Shown piece after piece: positions 38,723 through 58,040 of a stretch of 64,000 nt of DNA. Within the stretch, counting starts at the first letter, position 1. Each line of letters starts with the position of its first letter. The notes under the pieces were generated by a model. That model ran no database searches, was not told the DNA's origin, and saw only the letters and a list, made by a program, of their open reading frames with translations. A program made the translations under genes and the position numbers. Source of the DNA: Psychrobium sp. MM17-31 (GTDB lineage: Bacteria; Pseudomonadota; Gammaproteobacteria; Enterobacterales; Psychrobiaceae); the NCBI RefSeq assembly GCF_022347785.1, contig NZ_JAKRGA010000006.1, positions 1-64,000 on the forward strand, given 5' to 3'.

Positions 38723-39122
38723 TTTGGTGTGCTAATTGAGTTTAGCTGTTTATTCAAATTAAGCGATAGCACACCAGTTACTTTTCTTAAATGAAATACT
38801 TCCATGTATTTCACCCGATGGGTAGCCTGCGGCTATTCAAATTTGTTCCAAACAAATTTGTGCGTCGCCACTAGAATATCTGGAATATTCTAAGACTGCG
38901 CTAGCAGGTCGCAAAGCGATAAGTCTCAGGACGAGACTTACAAAGAAAAGTAACCAAAAGAAAGGCGACCCGCGATTTATCGCTTAATCTTAAATGATAA
39001 ATTGTCTATTCAATACCGTATTTGATCCGCATCCCTGCGGCAAATACTCAAAAATCGTCCCTGATTTTTGCATTGGCCAATTTCTAATTTAAGGCGACAA
39101 ATAACGGGAGAGATCCGCGCTG
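38723..39122. repeat. Modular intergenic repeat, copy A
   Basis: Fills the space between two convergent genes; no gene is seen from 38667 to 39226. Scaffold parts shared with copy B (57663-58040), in order: TGGTGTGCT...AGCACACCA; GTTACTTTTCTT...CAAAGAAAAGTAAC; AACCAAAAGAAAGGCGACCC; ATTTATC...GATAAAT; CTATTCAATACCGTATTTG; CAAATACTCAAAA; CCTGATTTTTGCATTGG; CAATTTCTAATTTAAG; and a GC-rich end. Inserted hairpins occur at 38792-38813, 38838-38860, 38872-38892 and 38920-38940, with further ones at 39027-39040 and 39049-39070. The hairpin arms are unrelated. The loops all carry TCC, CCA or GGA. Confidence 0.82.
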
Positions 39123-57662: not shown

Positions 57663-58040
57663 TTTGGTGTGCTGATAAAGCCTATCTGCTTATTTAAAAT
57701 TCGTGAAAGCACACCAGTTACTTTTCTTTGCGTCGCCAAAGAAAAGTAACCAAAAGAAAGGCGACCCGAAATTTATCGTTTGATCTTAAATGATAAATTG
57801 CCTATTCAATACCGTATTTGATCCGCATCTCGGCAACTGCTCCTGCGTTGCTCTACCTCCTGCATCCATGCAGTCGCCTACGGCAAATACTCAAAAGTTT
57901 GTCTGGAACAAACTTTAACAGCTGTAGCTGGCCTCGAAGAGGTGAGTACATGGAATGTACGAATCAAAATCATCCCTGATTTTTGCATTGGTCAATTTCT
58001 AATTTAAGACGCTAAATGGCGGGAGCTGGCCGCGCTGTCA
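57663..58040. repeat. Modular intergenic repeat, copy B
   Basis: Fills the space between two convergent genes; no gene is seen from 57601 to 58096. It shares the scaffold of copy A in the same order. Here the GTTACTTTTCTTTG / CAAAGAAAAGTAAC stem (57717-57750) is closed by only CGTCGC. Extra hairpins lie elsewhere: CTGCA-TCCA-TGCAG at 57860-57873, AAAGTTTGT-CTGGA-ACAAACTTT at 57894-57916, GTACA-TGGAA-TGTAC at 57946-57960, and CAAAATCA-TCCC-TGATTTTTG at 57965-57985. Some sit inside a scaffold hairpin that is uninterrupted in copy A. Confidence 0.82.

Follow-up and report, generated by a model that had tools for sequence, protein, structure and literature searches.

The window, a stretch of 64,000 nucleotides of Psychrobium sp. 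MM17-31 DNA, contains two long intergenic repeats that share a scaffold and differ in the small hairpins they carry, which raises the question of what kind of element is built in this way and in which molecule it acts. The initial annotation had placed two copies, A and B, at 38723–39122 and 57663–58040, and had reported shared blocks in a fixed order, a location between convergent genes, and at least ten small hairpins. The positions, the block order, and the gene context were confirmed, and 11 hairpins with TCC/GGA loops were counted by eye in the two copies together. Copies A and B represent two versions of a single scaffold of about 260 nt with site-specific inserts. The proposed combination of a constant scaffold with optional hairpin modules was borne out in a repeat larger than claimed; what had been overlooked is a scaffold core whose sequence fits a predicted triple-helix pseudoknot on the opposite strand. 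The features of the two copies are as follows.

38723–39122, minus strand: copy A; folding strand taken as minus; convergent genes on both sides
38725–38776, minus strand: S1 of copy A; arms 38725–38734 and 38767–38776; hypervariable loop; covariation (helix 1)
38777–38954, minus strand: S2 stem of copy A; GTTACTTTTCTT / AAGAAAAGTAAC, 12 bp, interrupted by the site-1 insert
38789–38942, minus strand: site-1 module of copy A; four hairpins around the kept pseudoknot loop GCGTCGCC (38862–38869)
38956–38963, minus strand: proposed triple-helix third strand of copy A; AAAAGAAA (minus: UUUCUUUU); triple covariation
38964–38969, minus strand: pseudoknot partner of copy A; GGCGAC, pairing with loop 38864–38869
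38970–39108, minus strand: S3 closing stem of copy A; arms 38970–39004 and 39078–39108, enclosing S4 and S5
39018–39047, minus strand: S4 hairpin of copy A; minus-strand loop AGGGAT; covariation
39050–39069, minus strand: S5 hairpin of copy A; minus-strand loop AGGGAC; covariation
57663–58040, minus strand: copy B; between convergent genes
57717–57750, minus strand: S2 of copy B, loop uninterrupted; arm 1 57722–57729, arm 2 57738–57745, pseudoknot loop GTCGCC 57732–57737
57752–57765, minus strand: third strand (57752–57759) and pseudoknot partner (57760–57765) of copy B
57828–57878, minus strand: site-2 module of copy B; two GGA-loop hairpins on minus (by eye)
57891–57969, minus strand: site-3 module of copy B; hairpins with loop CTGGA on plus and palindromic ACATGGAATGT

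Copies and distribution of the repeat

The basic element, about 260 nt long, consists of S1, S2, a CCAAAAGAAA strand, GGCGACCCG, and S3 around S4 and S5; S3 ends near CGGG..CCGCGC. The arms of S1 are TGGTGTGCT and AGCACACCA, around a hypervariable loop of about 35 nt, and those of S2 are GTTACTTTTCTTTG and CAAAGAAAAGTAAC. In the 4.17-Mb window genome, 28 copies could be measured, including A and B. A 28-base scaffold string had 17 exact and 5 near matches there, compared with 0 for the reversed control, and chance is excluded as their source. Copies with widely diverged S1 loops still have almost the same S2 core, a pattern suggestive of selection or conversion acting on individual copies. The flanks of the element are not conserved among the genome's own copies and, judged from them, a shared promoter does not appear evident. 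One subfamily (L011, L019, L022, and copy B) extends about 45 nt further upstream and about 55 nt further downstream, with CAGTTAAG- and CTTAACTG-like ends that might be remnants of terminal repeats.

The expectation that copies exist elsewhere held. Pattern searches detected the core in 41 of the 369 class genomes and 21 of the 398 phylum genomes sampled, and a seven-base form of it in 11 of the 369, with 0 for the reversed-pattern controls among the matches listed; in these patterns, the outer positions of each block were fixed and the inner four (or three) could vary, so that A/T-rich forms alone were findable. The element ranges over beta- and gammaproteobacteria, where one fold, written in varying letters, recurs in many families. 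Copy number varies between genomes, and the core versions are genome-specific. Alteromonadales bacterium alter-6D02 is probably a member of the same genus as the window genome, since the sequences of L131 and L135, two of its loci, are the same as those of L072 and L078 in the genus-mate G002.

Some individual arrangements were also observed. In G731, G164, G780, G788, and G182 (e.g. L177), copies often form inverted tail-to-tail pairs with cores about 420–560 bases apart, a BIME-like layout that presents one folding strand to transcription from either side. The L095 copy has lost the interior of S3 and kept its CCCG..CGGG ends, as expected for a deletion across a hairpin that joins the stem base. 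In Silvimonas amylolytica, a copy (L097) adjoins an SAH riboswitch and two glycine riboswitch aptamers.

Predicted fold of the scaffold

Nine helices were proposed and evaluated in 39 insert-free copies of the 51 genus copies found, with 12 left out. In these, 94.0% of the cells were paired and 172 were double-changed, compared with shuffle means of 87.0% and 44.7, respectively, and 0 of 500 shuffles reached either observed value. Controls with slid partners were paired in 39–46% of the cells, a comparison biased in favor of the structure, which was drawn from the same sequences. The fold as a whole, predicted from covariation, appears well supported.

In other genera, three purine/pyrimidine blocks of the core change together (TTTCTCTT/AAGAGAAA/AAAGAGAA and TTTCTTTT/AAAAGAAA/AAAGAAAA; also TTTCTATT/AATAGAAA/AAAGACAA, TTTCATTT/AAATGAAA/AAAGCAAA, and others). 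The 250 cores of the fetched loci comprise 22 distinct sets of arm 1, arm 2, and third strand, of which 15 obey one code at every position (13 without the rare C-to-G rule) and seven break it; among these seven, AAAGCAAA or AAATCAAA in arm 2 breaks both the pairing and the code. On the minus strand, the code reads U.A-U, C.G-C, and G.U-A, with C.C-G in two sets. When third strands were permuted among sets, the 27 hand-typed 8-base sets, with 96 of 108 inner cells fitting, exceeded the permutation mean of 57.4 and maximum of 76 (5000 permutations), and the 14 8-base sets from fetched loci alone, with 50 of 56, exceeded a mean of 29.7 and a maximum of 45; the code had been derived from the data on which it was tested. 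The plain A-A and G-G rules alone accounted for 88 of 108 cells (maximum 73) and 46 of 56 (maximum 40). Simple duplication or inversion does not produce a mirror repeat, so the concerted change of all three blocks speaks for a triplex under selection.

Opposite a T of the purine arm, the third strand carries C on plus, i.e. G on minus, and not the mirror base. In triplexes of the pyrimidine motif, placing G across from a T-A inversion is an established solution, and the G.T-A triplet was reportedly described in such triplexes by Griffin and Dervan in 1989. In RNA, according to the available text of PMC4666352, purine-motif triplexes cannot form and pyrimidine ones can.

The pairing partner of the S2 loop is the segment that follows the third strand: positions 1–5 are paired in 47, 40, 46, 38, and 37 of 47 distinct sets, respectively, with compensatory types at all five, and position 6 is paired in just 9. 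The prediction of an H-type pseudoknot, with a pyrimidine loop that would lie in parallel orientation to the purine arm, is well supported by these patterns, and the 5-bp lower stem would leave space for the groove crossing.

It is unlikely that the repeat acts at the DNA level on replication or recombination, as an intrastrand triplex or H-DNA of the BoxC/PIT/TM_ECO kind. The core does consist of a purine mirror repeat with its complement next to it, the intrastrand triplex layout given in the available text of PMC4666352, and one rearrangement-like junction, possibly a misassembly, lies exactly at S2; but the T-to-C code at inverted pairs is not mirror symmetry and fits the pyrimidine motif of one strand, and such a repeat would need neither the pseudoknot nor the additional covarying helices.

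Optional hairpin modules

Copy A has an insert of about 144 nt inside the S2 loop (160 long compared with 16), and copy B has one of about 48 nt in the S4 hairpin and one of about 72 nt ahead of S5. The S2 loop measures 12–16 in most of the genome's own copies and 155–161 in five, copy A among them; the S4 loop measures 2–3, or 50 in five copies including copy B; and the gap before S5 is 7, or 79 in four copies including copy B. Sites 1, 2, and 3 are filled in 5, 5, and 4 of the 28 copies, respectively, and no site-1 insert occurs together with a site-2 or site-3 insert among these 28, three of which have one site unmeasured.

Modules at the same site align across copies and species and are homologous, which makes them site-specific; in the site-1 alignment, rows L018, L024, L074, L080, and L140 were disregarded as false parses, the true insert of L024 being visible otherwise. 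The hairpins had been described as interchangeable, and this was not confirmed, as every site has its own homologous module. The initial annotation had also held that finding the same hairpins at each site would speak for simple divergence of one ancestral repeat; this was found in part, in the homology of same-site modules across copies and species. Its idea of mobile hairpins receives limited support from six other places in the genome that resemble the site-2 module (G000 C3:300466, C2:69559, C5:295204, C2:948561, C4:391, and C7:478; L063–L068). By eye, these look-alikes seem to lie in another repeat and an rRNA spacer, so that different repeat families may have GGA-loop hairpin modules in common.

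The inserts at sites 1 and 3 contain loops in both orientations. By eye, the site-1 module (L026, copy A) resembles a duplication in inverted orientation that surrounds the retained pseudoknot loop, and on the plus strand of these S2 loops, TCC loops lie 5′ and GGA loops 3′ of the pseudoknot loop.

Which strand folds

Wobble pairs were counted in the covarying helices. In the lower S2 stem, non-Watson–Crick cells on the plus strand were A.C in 18 and G.T in 0 cases among the loci from the lower-stem-free pattern, and 7 and 1 among the first class-search loci; the exact-28-mer loci, which are biased for this count, were left out. The total is 25 compared with 1, with 24 of the 25 at one base pair, and by distinct combination it is 9 compared with 1 (p = 0.02). 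Since A.C on plus is G.U on minus, the lower-stem wobbles point to the minus strand. S1 agrees with minus, with 21 A.C and 2 G.T on plus, 17 of them in one column. The loop-closing pairs of S4 and S5 (14 G.T and 0 A.C on plus) and the pseudoknot (8 G.T and 4 A.C) lean against minus.

The suggestion of a conserved loop behind variable arms was substantiated, and this loop is strongly oriented. On the plus strand, TCC and GGA loops numbered 36 and 2 of 46 hairpins in the window genome and genus, 29 and 1 of 70 in genome contigs (partly of the same genus), and 67 and 1 of 130 in the class and phylum set (a few genus loci included). The corresponding numbers in flanks 400–620 bases away were 1 and 1 of 30, 5 and 3 of 60, and 6 and 16 of 133, and in shuffles 0 and 1 of 9, 1 and 2 of 33, and 3 and 4 of 29. 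The loop asymmetry is a stronger sign of the minus strand than the wobbles. Energy folding does not choose the strand: the z-scores were −6.0 for minus and −7.3 for plus, so that plus-strand RNA folds as stably, and the minus-strand values of copies A and B were −6.0 and −4.9, respectively. The strand evidence is mixed; most likely, the functional molecule is the minus strand, as RNA. Single-stranded DNA would give the same triples.

The differences between A and B consist largely of drift and the presence or absence of three modules, as would be expected if a common palindromic repeat lacking any particular fold had simply diverged. We consider that explanation hardly credible, because the triple covariation, the pseudoknot covariation, and the loop asymmetry all exceed their controls.

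Genomic context and mobility

Gene context was scored with a crude ORF caller in 109 of 152 instances, 43 being unscorable. Convergent gaps held 32 of the 109, and the preference for convergent gene ends that the initial annotation had proposed to test is not significant (p = 0.32). The remaining instances lay in ++ (36), −− (33), and divergent (8) gaps; divergent, i.e. promoter, gaps are avoided (8/109, p = 4 × 10−6), and the orientation relative to neighboring genes is random (36 and 33). For 23 of the genome's own copies, the nearest ORF ends about 20–230 bases upstream and 4–175 bases downstream of the element. A stop codon precedes most copies, and the median distances from the left gene end to the core are 133–156 bases.

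This location after stop codons and the avoidance of divergent gaps are what a transcription terminator or a 3′-end stabilizer of the upstream gene would show. Such a function is nonetheless quite improbable, as no T-run was seen by eye after the hairpins and the random gene orientation counts against a simple 3′-UTR role.

Empty sites in sister strains, which the initial annotation had proposed to look for, were found: copies A and B are both missing at the orthologous convergent gene pairs of two sister species (G006 and G007). The flank-to-flank distance at the A site was 13 and 12 bp in the sisters compared with about 560 bp in the window genome, and at the B site 1 and 84 bp compared with about 500 bp; the extra DNA at these sites is longer than the element itself. 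Gain in the window lineage appears to be a simpler reading than loss in the sister lineage, and the difference in copies between sister species suggests that the element is or was mobile. By eye, no terminal inverted repeats or target-site duplication common to the copies were found, the CAGTTAAG / CTTAACTG ends belonging to one subfamily. A search with 131 bases of copy B gave no match in phages, and a copy of another family gave 13 partial matches in plasmid records, none covering 80% and all in plasmids predicted to be non-mobilizable.

Two junctions at S2 were also noted. Similarity between L107 and L110 (G006/G007) begins exactly at S2, through either repeat-mediated rearrangement or a MAG misjoin. 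An S1 difference between L071 and L090 was discarded, because similarity there likewise begins exactly at S2 and a short-read MAG misjoin is possible.

A selfish non-autonomous mobile element, whose minus-strand fold (as single-stranded DNA or RNA) would be recognized by a mobilizing enzyme and whose GGA loops would be incidental or part of the recognition, is a serious possibility. It would account for the empty sister sites, the random orientation with avoidance of promoters, and the variable copy number with genome-specific core versions. The absence, by eye, of common terminal repeats or target duplications is harder to reconcile with it, as is an S2 core kept near-identical while S1 loops diverged, which suggests selection or conversion per copy.

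Relationship to known elements

ERIC, REP-BIME, BOX, and MITE repeats are intergenic, multi-copy, and palindromic, have optional internal inserts, and contain no internal gene. The element shares these traits and is distinguished by the same fold recurring in different letters; we know of no triple covariation in those repeats. In the telomerase RNA pseudoknot, the MALAT1/PAN ENE, and SAM-II, a U-rich strand lies in the major groove and forms U.A-U and C.G-C triples. The triples of these pseudoknots and stem-loops are similar to those predicted here, and no homology is claimed; to our knowledge, none of them is a bacterial interspersed repeat.

CsrB/C and RsmX/Y/Z, sRNAs that sequester CsrA/RsmA, resemble the element in having several ANGGAN-type hairpins with variable arms. 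They are single-copy sRNA genes, whereas the element has tens of dispersed copies, and we know of no triplex pseudoknot in them. An Rfam search of copy A with E up to 1 yielded no family at gathering score; the only match near it, PrrB_RsmZ on the plus strand with 16 bits (cutoff 44) and an E of 0.26, is probably due to chance. In ten loci from other genera, Rfam detected riboswitches outside the element and nothing else. The TwoAYGGAY RNA motif (RF01731; Weinberg 2010, PMC2864571) likewise has hairpins, with AYGGAY loops, and the available text of PMC4333381 proposes a link to CsrA; the element differs in giving no Rfam match and in its predicted triplex pseudoknot, a structure unmentioned for TwoAYGGAY in the available portions of these two papers.

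Closest at the level of the core are the intrastrand triplex motifs BoxC, PIT, and TM_ECO. As presented in the available text of Holder et al. (2015, PMC4666352), they are likewise short and multi-copy, have three triplex-capable strands, and vary greatly in copy number between relatives. The motif detailed in that text is G/C-rich and of the purine motif, with 9-nt stems, 3–6 nt loops, and no larger fold described; the element is A/T-rich, would follow the pyrimidine motif on minus with inverted pairs read by G, and has a predicted pseudoknot within a covarying structure of about 260 nt. The TM_ECO/PIT pattern CCCTCNCCC..GGGNGAGGG..GGGNGAGGG was not found in the element, whose core is TTTTCTTT..AAAGAAAA..AAAAGAAA and variants. 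The same text cites a survey with 21 potential intrastrand triplexes in Haemophilus influenzae, and an earlier report of the bare triplex motif is possible. Literature searches by core sequence strings and by topic, with subscription journals mostly outside coverage, retrieved no description of the element, and the available text of Brewer 2021 (PMC8632094) and of an Alcanivorax sRNA paper (PMC9788540) contained nothing matching it. Seven conceptual translations of high-G+C copies had one sub-cutoff HAUS4 match in Pfam and otherwise none.

Hairpin loops and CsrA

The hairpin loops on the minus strand include AGGGAU, AUGGAU, AAGGAU, and AGGAC, and ANGGAN is the hexaloop of RsmE/CsrA sites in the available text of PMC7652899 and PMC3791407. 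CsrA was found in 313 of the 369 genomes of the class; of the 41 carriers of the element, 38 have it, and the presence of the element is not tied to CsrA. The hypothesis of a CsrA link was noted before its tests, and the strict ANGGAN motif was fixed post hoc, after the loops of the CsrA-lacking family f134 had been seen. With this motif, 71 of 114 elements in CsrA-positive genomes and 5 of 42 in CsrA-negative genomes scored, and on the opposite strand 0 of the 114. By genome, the numbers were 26 of 43 and 2 of 13, respectively (p = 0.0095), family f134 making up 6 of the 13, and by family 20 of 30 and 2 of 7 (p = 0.095). A looser definition that accepts TCC at any position of the loop was satisfied by 7 of the 13 CsrA-negative genomes. 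Both CsrA-negative motif carriers are incomplete assemblies (73% and 86%), and among CsrA-negative genomes at least 90% complete, the motif occurred in 0 of 11 (p = 3 × 10−4). In the sister genome G006 (80% complete), the motif is present and CsrA was not found; its genus-mates G000, G002, and G007 have CsrA, which makes G006 a third caution about incomplete assemblies.

A later set comprised 26 genomes reached via named loci, 16 of them with CsrA. Among those with scored elements, ANGGAN occurred in 0 of 9 CsrA-negative genomes (from Polaromonas, Silvimonas, Variovorax, Comamonadaceae, and Burkholderiaceae) and in 1 of 15 CsrA-positive ones (alone, p = 1). The sole carrier, a gammaproteobacterial MAG, has the motif in 3 of 3 elements, and the CsrA-positive genomes lacking it are 13 Pasteurellaceae and Thiogranum. 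The later set agrees with the occurrence of ANGGAN only with CsrA and adds no power; pooled, p was 0.0017, or 6 × 10−5 when the two incomplete genomes were omitted, values not corrected for phylogeny.

These results suggest that the ANGGAN hairpins, unlike the element itself, may need CsrA. CsrA binding cannot be the only role of the element, because 17 of the 43 CsrA-positive genomes, the 13 Pasteurellaceae, and Thiogranum have no motif. The occurrence of a hairpin-poor form where CsrA is lacking and in Pasteurellaceae suggests that the triplex core has a function by itself. The occurrence of the element in CsrA-lacking genomes too would suit a selfish mobile element, against which the apparent CsrA dependence of the loops speaks.

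Proposed function and implications

The reading that we prefer, with a probability of about 0.48, is a dispersed, CsrA-binding structured RNA that acts from the minus strand; we infer both its transcription and its binding of CsrA. The minus strand would fold into a long S3 closing stem holding small hairpins, an H-type pseudoknot formed by S2 and its loop pairing, and a further S1 hairpin. The pyrimidine strand, which corresponds position by position to the purine arm of S2, would lie in the major groove as a parallel triple helix and supply a stable fold, and the small hairpins, with free arms and constant ANGGAN loops, would be CsrA/RsmA binding sites, to which the optional modules would add further hairpins. 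On any read-through transcript, the element could then serve as a compact CsrA-binding module that sequesters CsrA or recruits it there. We regard as doubtful the further-reaching proposal that mobile triple-helix pseudoknot RNAs titrate CsrA, with tens of intergenic copies forming a distributed sink that is tuned by ANGGAN modules and whose hairpins are lost together with CsrA.

If the preferred reading is correct, the repeat would represent a widespread structured RNA element of beta- and gammaproteobacteria, for which we found no name. It would also be a naturally occurring triple-helix pseudoknot whose base triples covary from genus to genus, and repeat load would be connected with a global regulator that binds RNA.
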